Of a stretch of 64,000 bases of DNA, positions 4,025 through 16,501 are shown piece after piece (the first letter of the stretch is position 1; each line of letters starts with the position of its first letter). This DNA comes from Shouchella rhizosphaerae. GTDB taxonomy: Bacteria > Bacillota > Bacilli > Bacillales > Bacillaceae_D. The translations under genes and the position numbers were made by a program. The notes below the pieces were generated by a model. It searched no databases. It was not told the DNA's origin and was given only the letters and a program-made list of their open reading frames with translations. The DNA lies in the NCBI RefSeq assembly GCF_900142675.1, contig NZ_FRBS01000001.1, forward strand, positions 930,001 to 994,000, given 5' to 3'.

Positions 4025-4053
4025 ACTATACCATATTGTCCGGTTCCCTGCAA
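4025..4053 (-). promoter_or_regulatory. Sigma-A promoter for rpsB inside swrB
   Basis: TTGCAG (4053-4048), a 17-nt spacer and TATAGT (4030-4025) form a good vegetative promoter with an extended TGG before the -10. The elements overlap the last codons and stop of swrB, so rpsB is uncoupled from the flagellar operon. Confidence 0.7.
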
Positions 4054-4949
4054 CTGGATACATGCGGATTTTCATCATTTTTTTCATGGAAGCGAAGCAG
4101 CAAGCTCACTTCCGTTACACCGATCCCCAAGTCACGGGCAATTTCTTCCACAGCCAGCCCTTGCTTCTTTAGCGAAAATACTTGGCTGTACGTAGCTGAA
4201 TGGGCAAATTCCTCTTTATCTTCAACGGACTTCAGCCCGCTGTCTTGGCCGTTGCCGTATTTATTGTCGTTATGATCGTTGTGCTTGCTGTATTTGTCGT
4301 TTTCTTCCTTACCGTGGTCAACGATACTACGATTAGCGGGGGTATCATCGCTGTGACGTTGATTGTAATCCGCTTGATTTTCGAGGTGCGCCCGTTGATC
4401 GTCTTGCGCCTGATCAGCGTATTTATTCCGTCGGCCACTATCCCCTTGATTGACAAGTCTCGCGTATTGACCGCTTTGGCCTTGACGAACAAGGTTCTCC
4501 TGTTTATCGGCTTTAGCCTGATCAGCAAGCTTCACATCTGGATCATGCTTGCCTCGGCTCGCCTGTTCTTCATCGTTATCGTCTTTGCCTTGATTCACAA
4601 GTTTCCCATCTTTGACTTGACTGGTCCGTTCTCGATATTTAACGTCCTTGTCTAGATTAACAGACTTAACACCTGGGCCGCCTTTCGCTTGATTAGTGAA
4701 TGTTGGCTGTTCCCTGTCTTTCGCTTGATAGGTGTCAACGTCTTGTTCGTAGCTGCTGTCGGCTAACACTGCAAGTAGCTGGTCGTTGCTTTCTTTTACT
4801 TCAGCTAAAAATTGTTCAAGCGCTTCTTCTAGTTCGCTTTTATCTACATGCCCCTCTTGAAGCGCTTTTACTTTGCTTTCAAGGGCAACCTGTTTCATAA
4901 ACAAATAGCCGCACAGTAACAAAAGGGCAAATACTAAGATTTCCGTCAA
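4026..4949 (-). CDS. swrB: SwrB-like swarming/flagellar assembly protein with expanded repeat region
   Basis: It occupies the swrB (ylxL) position after sigD. In B. subtilis SwrB promotes hook-basal body maturation at the membrane. I set the start at the TTG at 4949 (GGGGGAG 4-5 nt upstream), giving TEILVFALLLLCGYLFM, a single N-terminal membrane anchor, then a short coiled segment. The C-terminal ~45 residues (YSQVFSLKKQGLAVEEIARDLGIGVTEVSLLLRF) form the conserved helix-turn-helix-like SwrB tail. Between them lies a very hydrophilic array of about eleven 12-residue repeats. At 307 residues it is almost twice B. subtilis SwrB (167). Orthology rests on position, anchor and tail. Confidence 0.8.
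   Translation of the reverse strand: MTEILVFALLLLCGYLFMKQVALESKVKALQEGHVDKSELEEALEQFLAEVKESNDQLLAVLADSSYEQDVDTYQAKDREQPTFTNQAKGGPGVKSVNLDKDVKYRERTSQVKDGKLVNQGKDDNDEEQASRGKHDPDVKLADQAKADKQENLVRQGQSGQYARLVNQGDSGRRNKYADQAQDDQRAHLENQADYNQRHSDDTPANRSIVDHGKEENDKYSKHNDHNDNKYGNGQDSGLKSVEDKEEFAHSATYSQVFSLKKQGLAVEEIARDLGIGVTEVSLLLRFHEKNDENPHVSSCREPDNMV
4359..4730 (-). repeat. 36-bp (12-residue) degenerate tandem repeats in swrB
   Basis: Translated units carry a central Q-[GA]-[KDQ] core spaced exactly 12 residues apart (for example NQGKDD, SRGKHD, DQAKAD, RQGQSG, NQGDSG, DQAQDD, NQADYN). One 3-residue phase slip separates the first four units from the last seven. Divergence between units indicates an old expansion. 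Confidence 0.8.
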
Positions 4950-4962
4950 TTGCTCTCCCCCT

Positions 4963-5727
4963 TTAACGGACAAATTCTTTCTTTTGCAAGCCTTTCCGCA
5001 GTTTGGCAATTGCCCGGGCATGGATTTGCGAGATGCGTGAAGTCGACAAATTTAAAATGCGCCCGATTTCCGTCAATGACAACTCTTCGTAATAGCTAAG
5101 TTGGATGACAAGCTGTTCATTGCGTCCTAGCTCTTTTATCATCTCTGCTAATTCTTTCCGTGTATCTTCTTCGACTAATTTATCATCAGGCATAATCGCT
5201 TGTTCATCTTCAAATTGGTAAGCAACAGCGCTAGGGTCCAAGTGGTCGTTCATATGCATGACGTCGTCCAAGGAAAGCGTATGGCTGGCAAATTGTTCCC
5301 GTTTTAATGCTTCGATCTCTTTTTCTGGCAAACCCATTGCAGCGGCAACTTCGCCAGGAAGAACAGACCGACCTTTCTCCTGTTCTAGTTGTTCCGTGAT
5401 TTGTTCCAACTTTTTTACTTTATCACGGATTGTCCGTGGCAGGCGGTCTTCTTTGCGGAGCCCGTCGATAATCGCTCCCCGGATTCGAAACGATGCATAT
5501 GTATCAAATTTTAGCGCTCGCTTGGAATCAAACTTGGCAATTGCATCTAGCAGGCCGCTTAACGCGTGGCTTTTCAGTTCATCTTTTGAAATCGATGACG
5601 GCAAGCCATTCGAAATCCGTTGCACGTGGTAAGCAACTAGCGGCATATAGTGTTCGATCAACGCTTCAGCAGCTACTTCTGAATGTTCGTCATCCCATTG
5701 TTTCCATAACTCTGCAGCATTTGCCAT
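4963..5727 (-). CDS. sigD: Flagellar RNA polymerase sigma factor SigD (sigma-28/FliA)
   Basis: Directs transcription of late flagellar, motility and autolysin genes. Region 2 is visible as LVAYHVQRISNGLPSSISKDELKSHALSGLLDAIAKFD and FDTYASFRIRGAIIDGLR. Region 4 ends in the helix-turn-helix LSLTEIGRILNLSTSRISQIHARAIAKLRK. With the ATG at 5727, 8 nt after AAAGGGGAG, the protein is 254 residues, the same length as B. subtilis SigD. The upstream TTG at 5748 lies before that Shine-Dalgarno and is rejected. It is the penultimate gene of the operon, as in B. subtilis, where distance from the promoter tunes motile-cell fraction. Confidence 0.97.
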   Translation of the reverse strand: MANAAELWKQWDDEHSEVAAEALIEHYMPLVAYHVQRISNGLPSSISKDELKSHALSGLLDAIAKFDSKRALKFDTYASFRIRGAIIDGLRKEDRLPRTIRDKVKKLEQITEQLEQEKGRSVLPGEVAAAMGLPEKEIEALKREQFASHTLSLDDVMHMNDHLDPSAVAYQFEDEQAIMPDDKLVEEDTRKELAEMIKELGRNEQLVIQLSYYEELSLTEIGRILNLSTSRISQIHARAIAKLRKGLQKKEFVR

Positions 5728-6224: not shown

Positions 6225-6831
6225 GGCAGCTAGCCTCCAACGCCTGCGTTAAGGTGACACTCGCGTTTTTATCGGGTATGAATAGCAATAAACCATCAAG
6301 GGGCTGCGTCGAATGCGGAAGGCAAATGTCCGTTTCCATCACAATACATTCTTCGTCATCGATTAAATGTAGCGCTCCTTCTGCGAGAACAGCGCTTGCT
6401 AAGTCAATGGAAAGCTCTGTCACAAGCGGGTAGCATTTTAAGTCTGTCAGTTTTGATAAAGCAGTCAAGTAAGCGCCGATCAACAGGTTGCCTACTTCTT
6501 GAAAGGCTGACTGGGCGAGCTCGCTTTCCGCAAATACATGTGGCTTTAGCTTGAGCTTCTCTTCAAGCAAATAAGCGGAAAAAGCAGCTGCTGCTTTTGT
6601 GGTCGCCATAAAGAACATTCCGCCGCTAAGCTCGCCGCCAAGGGGGGCATAGACAGCAGCAATTTCTTCACCCTCCGCAAAACGGAAGCGGGGCAGTTCA
6701 GCCATGCATAGGTAGCGTGCAGCTGGAACGTCCATGACGACATTGGCACCAAGTAGGCTGGACAGAGCTGTCGCCGCGTAGCCAGTGCCGATATTGGCCA
6801 CTTCCTTCATTCCGTCTAATCGATTACGCAT
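6217..6831 (-). CDS. cheC: CheY-P phosphatase CheC
   Basis: Removes phosphate from CheY and partners CheD in Bacillus-type adaptation. Both pseudo-symmetric active-site helices are present: E-V-A-N-I-G-T-G-Y near residue 10 and E-V-G-N-L-L-I-G-A near residue 112, each with the ExxN pair used by the CheC/CheX/FliY family. The length of 204 is close to B. subtilis CheC (209). Its start overlaps cheB directly, whereas cheA and cheW separate these two genes in B. subtilis. Confidence 0.95.
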
Positions 6832-7753
6832 AAAATCCCCCTTCCCGTTTATCTTTTTTAGCTAAGTATCGCCCAATCTCATCCTTGTCCATGACAGTGT
6901 CGACTTGATTGCTCGCAATCGCAGCCTTAGGCATTCCAAAAATCGCCGCCGATTTTTCCGATTCAGCTAAGATTTCACAACCGCCGCTTTGCTTAACCAT
7001 TTCCAATACTTTCGAACCATCATTTCCCATGCCCGTTAACACAACAAGCGTTTTCGTCGTACACGCAATGGTAGACTGGAAAAGCAGCGACACACTAGGA
7101 TGGTACAAATCATGTTTGCCAGCAGGTGAAATGTGGGCGTACAGGCGAGCGCCACGTTTATTTAGTTCCAACTGGGCGCCTCCTGGGGCAATATAAGCAG
7201 TACCTGCAAGTAGCGCTTCCCCATGTGATGCTTCTTTGACGTGAATCCGACATAAGCGGTCAAGCCGAGCGGCCAGCGATTTCGTAAAACCTGCTGGCAT
7301 ATGCTGGGCAATGACGATTGGAGCTGAAAAGTCAGAGGGCAGCTTTGTCAGCACATGGGTGAGAGCAAGAGGGCCGCCTGATGATGCACCAATGGCAACT
7401 ACTTCCCCTAACGGCTGCAATGGAGCTTCGTCCCGTTTGCCACATGGCAACAGTTTGGCGGCAAGGTCTTTAGTTAGCGCTTTGGCATTTGCTGTTTGCC
7501 AGAAGACGGTTCGTTCGCTGTCAACCACTTGCTGATGCCGTTCTAGTACAAACACTGTATGGCGAGGCACCCCGGCGACGTCCATATGCTCCCATTCCTC
7601 ACAAGGCGCATATAAAAATGCATCAACCGTCACAATCGCCTCTTCCCAGTTTGAAAAAGCAGCATTTGCCTCAATTCCCTCTACTTGACGTAGCGCCGTT
7701 TGTAGAAATTGCTGCTTAAACAAAGAAGGGCTCACAATCGCTACGGTCACCAT
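6824..7753 (-). CDS. cheB: CheB-type protein-glutamate methylesterase with degenerate receiver domain
   Basis: The C-terminal methylesterase domain is intact. The nucleophile Ser is in AIGASSGGP, the His in IAQHMPAGF and the Asp in TGMGNDG, and it should demethylate or deamidate receptors. The N-terminal receiver is abnormal. Where CheB normally has the Asp-Asp pocket, residues 8-9 are Ser-Pro (VSPS). The segment aligned with the phospho-acceptor strand reads VDAFLYAP, with no Asp at the expected site. It cannot be activated by CheA in the usual way. At 309 residues it is shorter than typical CheB (about 350). It overlaps the flhG-like gene upstream and cheC downstream. Confidence 0.92.
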   Translation of the reverse strand: MVTVAIVSPSLFKQQFLQTALRQVEGIEANAAFSNWEEAIVTVDAFLYAPCEEWEHMDVAGVPRHTVFVLERHQQVVDSERTVFWQTANAKALTKDLAAKLLPCGKRDEAPLQPLGEVVAIGASSGGPLALTHVLTKLPSDFSAPIVIAQHMPAGFTKSLAARLDRLCRIHVKEASHGEALLAGTAYIAPGGAQLELNKRGARLYAHISPAGKHDLYHPSVSLLFQSTIACTTKTLVVLTGMGNDGSKVLEMVKQSGGCEILAESEKSAAIFGMPKAAIASNQVDTVMDKDEIGRYLAKKDKREGGFYA

Positions 7754-8322
7754 TGCAACAAAAATTCCTTTACGAGCACGCTTACACTCTCGTAAATGCT
7801 ATCAACGTACGCTTCGCGAGACCCGTTTTCAATAACACCGAGGATTGTTGTCCGCTTTTCTAAAAATGTCGTAATCGTATGCGCCATATTGTAAGCAGCC
7901 CGCTTCGCTTTCTCTGAATCTCCTTGTGACAATCCAAGGAGCAAAACAGAACGAGGCATTTCTTGTTTCACAAACTGATAGTTGGCAAGAAGCGCCTCTT
8001 TATCGGCCACTGTAAACAACAACAAAGGAACATCTTGGCGCAATTGTTTTTTCTCCCCCGCTGTCCGGATGTAAAACAGCACTTGAACATTGGCAGCAGA
8101 CAGCGTTTTACTCGATTCTCGAGTAAATAGATGGTCTTGTTTCTGGGCTGAAAACAGTTGTTTTGCGGCGTCGGTTGCGATAATAGCCGCTTGGAACCCG
8201 TAGCGATCGAGCGCTTGACAAACTTCTTCTATCATCATTGTTTCTTGCGCGTTTGAAAGCTGGATTTCAAATGCTTTTGTTTTCCTGCTTGCAAGCATAC
8301 GCAAGCCTTCTGCTTGATCCAT
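7747..8322 (-). CDS. FlhG (YlxH)-like protein lacking the ATP-binding P-loop
   Basis: It sits exactly where flhG lies, one base overlapping flhF (TGATG), with GGGGG upstream of the ATG at 8322. It begins MDQAEGLRML, matching the DQAxxLR motif through which FlhG stimulates the FlhF GTPase. FlhG is a MinD/ParA ATPase of about 290 residues. This protein has 191 and contains no GKGGVGKS deviant Walker A. The first-half sequence is short and diverged. The second half (VLFYIRTAG, LLLFTVADKEAL, AHTITTFLEKRTTILGVI) still resembles the MinD-fold C-terminal half. The frame is open and compact, so it is not an obvious pseudogene. I call it a degenerate FlhG. Confidence 0.78.
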   Translation of the reverse strand: MDQAEGLRMLASRKTKAFEIQLSNAQETMMIEEVCQALDRYGFQAAIIATDAAKQLFSAQKQDHLFTRESSKTLSAANVQVLFYIRTAGEKKQLRQDVPLLLFTVADKEALLANYQFVKQEMPRSVLLLGLSQGDSEKAKRAAYNMAHTITTFLEKRTTILGVIENGSREAYVDSIYESVSVLVKEFLLQW

Positions 8323-9299
8323 CAGACACCCCCGGTAAGCCACTTCAGCAATTGTTCTTTATCAGGCCAGCAAATGTCTTCTGGCACATTTTGTCCAGTC
8401 GTCACACAAGCAACTGGAATCGCCTCGCTGTACAAAAGCTCACAAAGTGTTCCAAGTGAAGCTGTTTCATCCAACTTCGTTAAGATCAGGCCATTGACAA
8501 GCTCTTTTGGAAAACGGCTAAGCATATGCCGGGCATCTTCTGCTTTAGCAGCCAAACTAAGGGCAACCACTAAGTCGCATGACGCGCTCTGCCGTATATA
8601 CTCAACGAGCTCAACAGGCATTTGCTCATGCAAATAATTGCGCCCAGCTGTGTCAACTAAGACAAGATCAGCCGTTTGACGGCCGCACAAATCAATGAGT
8701 TCTGATTCATTGTATGCTGTATAAATAGGGCAATCGAGAATATGAGCATATGTTTTTAACTGTTCGACTGCGGCAATCCGATACGTATCAAACGTGATAA
8801 AAGAAACCGTTTTGTTTTCCTCAAACATGGCTTTTGCAGCAAGCTTAGCGATTGTTGTTGTTTTTCCTACCCCAGTTGGCCCAGCGACAATGAGTGTTTG
8901 TTGCCGTTTTTGCACGAATGGTTGCAGCTGCAAACTGGCGCGAAACGTATGCATAAGCAACTCTTCTTTCGTCCGGGCGTTGCCTTGCTTGTCTGCCATT
9001 TGCGCTGTCAACTGCAAATTTTTAAGAACACGGTTTGACACGCCCAGCTGTTGCAAATGGCGGTTTGCTTCTTTTAAAAGCGGTGATTGCTTATCATCAC
9101 CGTCGCGGCTAACACTGTTACGATGACTCGGTCCATCAATGCCAGCGGTCACTTGAACTTGCTTTTTGCCAAAAAAACCAAATAGGCCTCCTGTCACCAC
9201 TTCTTTTACATGCAATATGACAGCATCCTTGCCCAACTGCTTGCGGATGTCTTTTGCCGCATCTTCTAGCGTCGGGGCTACAAATCGTTTTACGTTCAT
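8322..9299 (-). CDS. flhF: Flagellar SRP-family GTPase FlhF
   Basis: Signal-recognition-particle-type GTPase governing flagellar placement and number at the membrane. The G domain shows G1 [16 protein letters not shown], a DTYRIAAVEQL insertion-box-like segment, G3 DTAGRN and G4 TKLDET. The N-terminal B domain (about residues 1-75) begins VKRFVAPTLEDAAKDIRKQLGKDAVIL. At 325 residues it is shorter than B. subtilis FlhF (366), mainly in the linker between B and N domains. Its neighbour that should control it is reduced. Confidence 0.96.
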   Translation of the reverse strand: MNVKRFVAPTLEDAAKDIRKQLGKDAVILHVKEVVTGGLFGFFGKKQVQVTAGIDGPSHRNSVSRDGDDKQSPLLKEANRHLQQLGVSNRVLKNLQLTAQMADKQGNARTKEELLMHTFRASLQLQPFVQKRQQTLIVAGPTGVGKTTTIAKLAAKAMFEENKTVSFITFDTYRIAAVEQLKTYAHILDCPIYTAYNESELIDLCGRQTADLVLVDTAGRNYLHEQMPVELVEYIRQSASCDLVVALSLAAKAEDARHMLSRFPKELVNGLILTKLDETASLGTLCELLYSEAIPVACVTTGQNVPEDICWPDKEQLLKWLTGGV

Positions 9300-15310: not shown

Positions 15311-16501
15311 TTAACGCAAGTGGGTAAGACGGTCTTTTTTGCTAACAATGTCTGTAATCCGTACGCCAAAGTTTTCGTCAATCACGACTACTTCCCCTTT
15401 GGCAATCAGCTTGTCATTAATAAGCACATCGACCGGCTCCCCTGCCAACTTATCCAGTTCAATAATCGATCCTTGCGCAATCGACAAGATTTCGCGTATC
15501 GTTTTTTTCGTACGCCCCAATTCCACTTTAACTTCCAGCGGTATGTCTAAGAGCATGTCTAAGTTTTGCATTTCTGCTTCGTCTGGCTTTGTTGTCTCAA
15601 AATTAGAGAACACCGCTTTTTCTACAACTTGCTCAGCATCTTTTACCCTTTGGCCAATATGCTGGTTGACTCGCTCAGCACTTGTGCCATCCCCAGGCCC
15701 GCCAATGGCTGGAGCAGGTTCAGGCAACGGTTCTGCCTCTTGCACTGGCGGTTCTGCGGTGGTGCCTCCGCCAAGCAAGGCGTTTGCGTAATCTTTGCTG
15801 AAAGGAACGCTAATAAGTTGCATTAACTTTGAATCAATCAGATCGCCGACACGAAGAGAAAACGAAATCGCAATCAAATCTTCGCCATCGGAAACATACT
15901 CCGTCCGCGACTGCTCATCAAATTCAATAACTTCCACTTTTGGCGGCGAAATGTCGACACGACGATTGAATAATGTCGACATCGATGTGGAGGCAGAACC
16001 CATCATTTGGTTCATCGCTTCTTGGACTGCACTTAAATGCATCTCCGACAATTCTGGATCAGGGTTTTCCCCATTTCCTCCAAGCATGAGATCTGCAATG
16101 ATCGCTGCGTCATCAGTCGTAATCACAAATAAGTTCGAGCCTTCGAATCCCTCTGTGTATTTAACATGGACAATGACGTTCGGCCGTGGAAAAAGCTGGC
16201 GCAACATGTCTGATTTGACTGCTGATACCACCGGTGTCGTAATTTCGACTTTTTGATTCAACAGTGCTGATAACGCAGTCGCCGAACTACCAAAGGAAAT
16301 ATTGCCGATTTCGCCAATCGTATCTTGCTCCATATGAGTTAAAAACTCGTTAATATCCGGGGGCTCCGTTTGTGATTCTTCTGGCTGGGATTCGCCTTCA
16401 CGGACTTCTGGTTGCCCAGCCTCGTCAGAAGCTTCGCCGTCCTGGAGCCCCTTTAACAATTCGTTTATTTCTTCCTGGGAAAGCGGCTTGTCATTCATCA
16501 T
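15311..16501 (-). CDS. fliY: Flagellar switch protein / CheY-P phosphatase FliY
   Basis: Combines a CheC-type phosphatase with a FliN-type switch module. The N-terminal peptide (LSQEEINELLKGLQDG) resembles the CheY-P-binding tail of FliM/FliY. Two phosphatase helices follow (EIGNISFGSSATALSALL; EAMNQMMGSASTSMSTLF), then a Pro/Glu-rich linker, then a C-terminal SpoA domain (LLDIPLEVKVELGRTKKTIREILSIAQGSIIELDKLAGEPVDVLIN). The length of 396 is normal. Either of two adjacent ATGs (16501 or 16498) could be used; the second has better spacing from GGAGGA. It overlaps fliM. Confidence 0.97.
   Translation of the reverse strand: MMNDKPLSQEEINELLKGLQDGEASDEAGQPEVREGESQPEESQTEPPDINEFLTHMEQDTIGEIGNISFGSSATALSALLNQKVEITTPVVSAVKSDMLRQLFPRPNVIVHVKYTEGFEGSNLFVITTDDAAIIADLMLGGNGENPDPELSEMHLSAVQEAMNQMMGSASTSMSTLFNRRVDISPPKVEVIEFDEQSRTEYVSDGEDLIAISFSLRVGDLIDSKLMQLISVPFSKDYANALLGGGTTAEPPVQEAEPLPEPAPAIGGPGDGTSAERVNQHIGQRVKDAEQVVEKAVFSNFETTKPDEAEMQNLDMLLDIPLEVKVELGRTKKTIREILSIAQGSIIELDKLAGEPVDVLINDKLIAKGEVVVIDENFGVRITDIVSKKDRLTHLR

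Follow-up and report, generated by a model that had tools for sequence, protein, structure and literature searches.

The flhF-flhG-cheB locus

The stretch of DNA analysed here (the window, 64,000 nucleotides) is taken to belong to an organism of the Shouchella clausii group with a genome of 4.24 Mb, whose FlhF matches that of Shouchella tritolerans at 95% and that of S. clausii at 94%. On the reverse strand, flhF is followed by an open reading frame, hereafter termed short flhG, which starts with ATG and encodes a protein with the N-terminus MDQAEGLRML (Table 1). The stop codon of flhF and the start codon of short flhG share a single base (TGATG), and the 3' end of short flhG runs into the start of cheB. 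The FlhF protein scored 204 bits against the TIGR03499 model (cut-off 174). The open reading frame and the TIGR03499 score confirmed what had been described from the letters of the DNA by an earlier reader (the sequence-only reading), namely a 191-residue frame with this N-terminus that overlaps an intact flhF. The FliY of the window contains PLSQEEINELL in its N-terminus.

Table 1. Positions of short flhG, its presumed partners and the codons discussed in the text
Feature	Position in window	Strand	Basis
Reduced, P-loop-less FlhG homologue, 191 aa	7747..8322	-	ORF, genus-wide recurrence, alignments, profile-profile comparison
flhF, SRP-type GTPase, presumed partner	8322..9299	-	ORF and family-model match
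cheB, next downstream of short flhG, context	6824..7753	-	ORF and family-model match
fliY, presumed C-ring partner	15311..16501	-	Name by reading; partner role after excerpts of PMC12327844
Codons D2-R8 (DQAEGLR), putative FlhF-activating enhancer-helix motif	8299..8319	-	D, Q, A, L, R invariant
Segment aligned to canonical strand, P-loop and helix start; GKGGVGKS absent	8233..8268	-	Alignment
Codons Y115 to K119; Y115 and K119 correspond to Y173 and K177 of Gt FlhG	7966..7980	-	Alignments; contacts from excerpts of PMC12327844
Codon N145, aligned to Gt FlhG R207	7888..7890	-	Alignment
Codon F153, aligned to Gt FlhG F215	7864..7866	-	Alignment

A receiver domain could not be recognised in the CheB of the window, nor in that of four of the five other genus members tested (loci L005, L007, L010, L011 and L012), the cheB frames of L010 and L011 being just 216 and 212 aa long; the domain was present in L012 (genome G002) and in the second group described below (L146). 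From these sequences, phosphorylation control of CheB seems to have been lost within the genus Shouchella. The G3 motif of FlhF, DTAGR, has become DTPGD in genomes G003, G008 and G012, DTAGD in G005 and DTEGR in G002 (flhF loci L128, L132, L136, L130 and L127). At positions 4026-5021 of the window, on the reverse strand, lies an open reading frame with imperfect VNQ[AG]K-type repeats; it occupies the place of swrB, which we take to follow sigD.

Conservation of short flhG across Shouchella

Short flhG was found in 12 of 13 Shouchella genomes, and in all 12 loci read it lies between flhF and cheB. Since this arrangement recurs, and since the short form is carried at the same site by so many genomes, the frame is neither a product of chance nor a sequencing error. 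The thirteenth genome (2.6 Mb) gave a best FlhF-model match of 4.6e-24, which is SRP-type, and was read as having no FlhF. In five pairs from the S. clausii group dN/dS was 0.09-0.19 for short flhG, which is thus under purifying selection, and 0.13-0.15 for flhF. Three of five other pairs gave 0.095-0.215 for short flhG, the pair with genome G006 gave 0.27, and one had a saturated dS. The short FlhG of the window shares 21-44% identity with the seven aligned genus sequences from outside the clausii group.

The genus alignment (A1) holds 11 of the 12 short forms, L009 of genome G008 having been dropped as close to L008. The D, Q, A, L and R of the activator motif were invariant in all 11, in 4/4 sequences of the second group and also in the twelfth Shouchella sequence. 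L38, T50, F57 and Q62-D63 of the window protein are (nearly) invariant among the Shouchella short forms as well, and known FlhG contacts do not explain them. Two chance estimates from the same analysis, 0.0016 and 0.0019, take alignment columns as equally likely and serve as a rough guide.

A sequencing error or a decaying pseudogene is scarcely credible here. A shifted C-terminus in one assembly (G006, 86% complete) would fit such an account, but genus-wide comparison contradicts it, the frame being open and syntenic in 12/13 genomes with dN/dS well below 1 and no P-loop in any frame. A frameshift concealing an intact gene, an objection that the sequence-only reading had itself raised, likewise fell away in view of the one-base overlap with flhF, the genus-wide occurrence of the short form and the lack of a hidden P-loop.

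Absence of the P-loop and search for a second flhG

A six-frame scan of positions 7600-8500 detected no P-loop pattern, which bears out the earlier report that GKGGVGKS is missing, and the short FlhG of the window had neither an NCBIfam match nor a Pfam match above cut-off. Searching the whole genome of the window with the short protein returned one match, and its five CbiA-family matches were read as Soj, MinD, Mrp, a CpsD-like kinase and Ffh. A profile of canonical FlhG at E <= 1e-36 matched 28/28 other genomes of the family and 0/13 Shouchella genomes, whose best matches, near 1e-33, read as MinD. These three routes (short protein, CbiA family and canonical profile) turned up no second flhG in the window genome, and the intact copy elsewhere that had been envisaged as a counter-argument did not come to light. 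At 27 of the 28 best canonical loci of the family the frame holds both a P-loop and DQA, although one of these 27 (G032) breaks near its end. At the 28th, in genome G063 (91% complete), the canonical-type FlhG after flhF is just a 193-aa fragment (L106, 1498-2076), either a broken gene or an assembly error.

A second reduced group within the order

Across 219 genomes of the order, canonical FlhG was present in 203 at a threshold of E 1e-40. In ten of the other 16 the FlhF model found nothing better than SRP-level matches, and these ten were read as lacking FlhF; six had FlhF: two Shouchella, G104, G164, G248 and G074. G074 encodes, in the place of flhG, a P-loop-less protein of 144 aa (MNVRDQAENLRKQ...). 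Short proteins of this type were found in 4/4 genomes of its genus (g41, family f35) and in 0/25 other f35 genomes searched, and a P-loop FlhG was present in the five f35 genomes of other genera that were checked. In G104 and G164 (L111 and L112) flhF is followed by a basal-body-rod-like gene, with no flhG after flhF. G248 (L114, 1249-2295) has a divergent FlhF with an altered P-loop, GPSGGGKTT, and directly after it a cheA-like gene, with no FlhG there.

Descent of the short protein from FlhG

A profile built from 11 short proteins matched, at E <= 0.01, 10 of the 28 other genomes of the family by way of the C-terminal half and missed 18 of the 28 canonical genomes; all 10 matched loci hold a P-loop FlhG frame. 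By hhalign, the short forms aligned with 16 canonical FlhGs at a probability of 92, rising to 95 when both reduced groups were pooled, and with the MinDs of Shouchella at 0.6. The C-terminal half had been called MinD-like: its likeness to FlhG held, while its likeness to MinD did not extend to the genus's own MinD. The hhalign alignments covered 68-74 columns in the C-terminal part alone. The N-terminal half, roughly residues 17-97, lines up with canonical FlhG in multiple alignments alone, and its putative MinD-type nature is read from these. A CbiA/MinD-type P-loop ATPase domain was not recognised in short FlhG by Pfam, by NCBIfam or by hhalign against the MinD of the genus.

Searches of the family libraries with the short forms gave no match except a weak one to Pfam SduA_C (E 0.025, below its cut-off), which was taken as chance. 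Designed proteins at E 0.0064 and 0.35 were all that a solved-structure search with the short-form profile returned, and these too were taken as chance. An AlphaFold model computed from three near-identical sequences had a pLDDT of 43.8; its VIA-align rows were weak and unrelated, and neither MinD nor FlhG figured in the 50 listed. So poor a model gave little basis for judging the structural match on which the sequence-only reading had also made its proposal depend.

A combined short profile was run against 397 genomes of the order at E 1e-6 and gave 25 matches, six to short forms (four Shouchella, two g41) and 19 to proteins of 288-307 aa, 12 of which coincide with canonical FlhG matches among those listed; any short form that has diverged beyond the reach of this profile would escape such a search. 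These matches bear on the idea that the short protein arose by fusion of a DQAxxLR helix to an unrelated small domain and not by reduction. Such a fusion would account for the lack of MinD-type matches in Pfam and NCBIfam and for hhalign leaving the N-terminal half unaligned, but the combined profile picks out FlhG frames of canonical size and the position in the operon is unchanged, making it very improbable. Comparison of the sequences shows that the short protein is a descendant of FlhG, having the same site, the same activator motif and a homologous C-terminal half. Since the P-loop ATPase that defines the FlhG ATPase family was looked for and not found, we file the protein outside that family as a reduced FlhG homologue, which may nevertheless act as the activating portion of FlhG does. 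The central proposal of the sequence-only reading, an FlhG homologue that no longer has the MinD-type ATPase but retains the FlhF-activating motif, is supported by the P-loop scan, the conserved motif and the profile comparison.

Positions kept and lost

Residue conservation was assessed by aligning 39 canonical FlhGs (26 from the family, five from f35, seven others and that of Geobacillus) with 11 Shouchella and four g41 short forms. L099, whose frame is interrupted close to its end, and L107, a second match that resembles MinD, were dropped from the canonical set, and the G063 fragment was not part of it. Columns were counted as conserved at >=97% in the canonical set and as kept when retained in >=10/11 Shouchella and >=3/4 g41 sequences. 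On this basis 49 columns are conserved in canonical FlhG, eight of which are kept in both reduced groups: D4, Q5, A6, L9, R10, Y173, K177 and L216 in Geobacillus numbering (Gt; checked by K36 and D60). The P-loop positions, Gt 29-38, are kept in 0/11 Shouchella and 0/4 g41 sequences. The result for the catalytic aspartate, Gt D60, depends on the alignment, with 0/11 and 0/4 in one and D in 6/11 and 3/4 in another.

Excerpts of PMC12327844 report that changing K177, R207 (in places printed R277) or F215 abolishes binding of FliY by FlhG. The kept residues Y173, K177 and L216 lie at or beside FliY-contact residues, with K177 alone of the three a reported contact. The K177 column is K in 11/11 Shouchella and 4/4 g41 sequences. 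The R207 column is N in 11/11 and 4/4 short forms and, among the 26 canonical family members, N in 17 and S in nine, so that R is not the rule of the family. At F215, Shouchella has F in 10/11 and Y in 1/11, and g41 has F or Y in 4/4, whereas the Shouchella MinDs have G, D and L at the K177, R207 and F215 columns (13/13). In a separate alignment of 12 sequences (seven short, five canonical) the only invariant residues were the D, Q, A, L and R of the motif, Y115, K119 and N145.

The short FlhG ends before the cationic C-terminal tail of canonical FlhG and has no aligned counterpart to it. The net charge of the best C-terminal 14-mer was -1 to -4 in eight of the nine Shouchella proteins tested and +2 in that of G002; it was +2, -1, -3 and 0 in the second group, and 0 to +5 in 19 canonical FlhGs. 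As judged from these alignments, the short form has lost the P-loop as well as the cationic tail that targets the membrane.

The FliY N-terminus was also tried as a test of co-evolution. LSQ[DE]EIN was found in 20/20 FliYs (20 proteins from 21 loci, L131 yielding none), and the test was rejected, since the extraction pattern itself required an LSQ[DE]EIN-type motif and the motif did not differ between loci with short FlhG and those with canonical FlhG.

One or two origins of the short form

In the FlhA tree (33 rows, f2_G036, Neob_L021 and a 232-aa fragment from G259 having fallen out), Shouchella branched beside genus g2, which belongs to the same family (100/98), and g41 fell with the rest of f35 (96/90); both placements favour two reductions. 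Forcing the two short groups together cost 22.9 log-likelihood units (p-AU 0.081). The corresponding test with FlhF, on 31 rows that included nine of the 12 Shouchella and three of the four g41 sequences, gave a cost of 1.07 units (p-AU 0.278); both reduced groups have long branches in FlhF, and the tree, which carried long-branch warnings, did not separate them. As a joint clade is rejected by neither p-AU value, a single reduction, with flhF-flhG passed from one group to the other, is a tenable if less simple reading. The ATPase of FlhG was probably lost twice, this being the simplest reading, which the trees favour without settling.

A proposed nucleotide-free adaptor

According to the same excerpts (PMC12327844), FlhG of Geobacillus binds FliY independently of nucleotide and requires ATP to bind GpsB, the latter interaction being lost in K36A, and the FliY and GpsB sites on FlhG overlap. 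In B. subtilis, the ATP-hydrolysis mutant D65A, a constitutive dimer, leaves hook distribution unaffected, deletion of the MTS lowers the number of hook spots by ~10%, and Q8A resembles deletion of flhG. The features essential by the test of the B. subtilis mutants are thus the ones that the reduced proteins retain, and those that proved largely dispensable are the ones that they lack; it is from this match that we infer a model. Being locked as a dimer, D65A is not an exact model of the natural case, in which the loss goes further.

We consider it rather likely that the only flhG found in the genome has been reduced to an ATP-independent adaptor, one end of which would trigger GTP hydrolysis by FlhF while the other docks FliY. 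The glutamine of the N-terminal helix would enter the FlhF-GTP dimer and trigger hydrolysis, as in canonical FlhG, and the C-terminal half would bind the FliY N-terminus without nucleotide, as in Geobacillus. A monomeric adaptor of this kind would bring together C-ring subunits and the reset of FlhF, with no ATP-driven dimerisation and no membrane cycling of its own. A GpsB-like protein is encoded in the window genome, so that any ATP-dependent coupling to GpsB that the ancestor may have had has presumably been lost. An ATP-independent protein that only activates FlhF had been suggested earlier; the activator motif without a P-loop agrees with this, but "only" probably says too little, as FliY-contact positions are also kept.

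The narrower reading, an FlhF-activating helix on a drifting carrier domain with Y, K, N and F retained for packing, has perhaps a minor share of the probability. The resemblance of Q8A to the deletion in B. subtilis makes the helix the main function there (PMC12327844, excerpts), sequences beyond the clausii group differ widely from the short protein of the window except in the helix, and Y173 and L216, kept alongside K177, are not reported FliY contacts; residues retained for folding could look the same as docking residues. A bare helix, however, would not need about 140-190 residues under purifying selection, and K177, a tested contact residue, is kept in both groups at a column where MinD differs, as it does at R207 and F215. 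Since FliY and GpsB share part of their site on FlhG, the kept residues would fit GpsB as well as FliY and do not distinguish between them. A new partner that replaces nucleotide switching, whether MinD, GpsB (for example bound without ATP) or another protein, might make use of the encoded GpsB-like protein and of the unexplained genus-specific invariants L38, T50 and F57; we regard it as improbable, as binding of GpsB in Geobacillus needs ATP (PMC12327844, excerpts) and nothing observed here points to a new partner.

If the adaptor model holds, flagellar patterning could run without a MinD-type ATP switch, with FlhF reset coupled directly to C-ring docking. The chances seem evenly balanced that nucleotide-free FlhG evolved at least two times in one order, and that on each occasion the same two working surfaces were left, one the helix that activates FlhF and the other the site that docks to the C-ring. 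Its apparent loss in two groups suggests that the ATP-driven switch of FlhG is not essential. The role of the FlhG ATPase has been unsettled, the B. subtilis hydrolysis mutant having normal hooks and the glutamine change approximating a deletion (PMC12327844, excerpts), and two groups apparently without the ATPase but with activator and docking positions would be a natural version of that experiment. The short FlhG also offers a small protein for probing the minimal FlhF-FlhG switch.

Among the titles and abstract openings of the matches listed, in a literature whose subscription papers were partly outside the scope, we found no description of a P-loop-less FlhG, and the excerpts of a 2025 review (PMC12826062) mention none. 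Flagellation of the genus is given in excerpts of PMC8543038 as 'motile, or non-motile', the former genus being peritrichous.

Comparison with known systems

The closest counterpart is canonical FlhG (YlxH, FleN) of B. subtilis and Geobacillus thermodenitrificans (PDB 4rz2, 4rz3), with which the short form shares its place after flhF, the DQAxxLR motif and a homologous C-terminal half with FliY-contact positions. It differs in being ~100 residues shorter and in lacking both P-loop and cationic membrane-targeting tail. MinD has a distant common origin with the short form through FlhG. In contrast to MinD, the short form has no P-loop and no detectable profile similarity to it, and the window genome has a separate MinD-type gene. 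TadZ/CpaE, a ParA-like protein with an altered Walker A, is another relative of MinD/ParA that departs from the classic ATPase motifs; it belongs to a different pathway than short FlhG. Bacillus cereus is likewise a Gram-positive organism with FlhF and without an FlhG ATPase (PMC7218170, excerpts), and G104 and G164 appear similar. However, while B. cereus is without flhG altogether according to these excerpts, Shouchella retains the activator motif and the C-terminal half.
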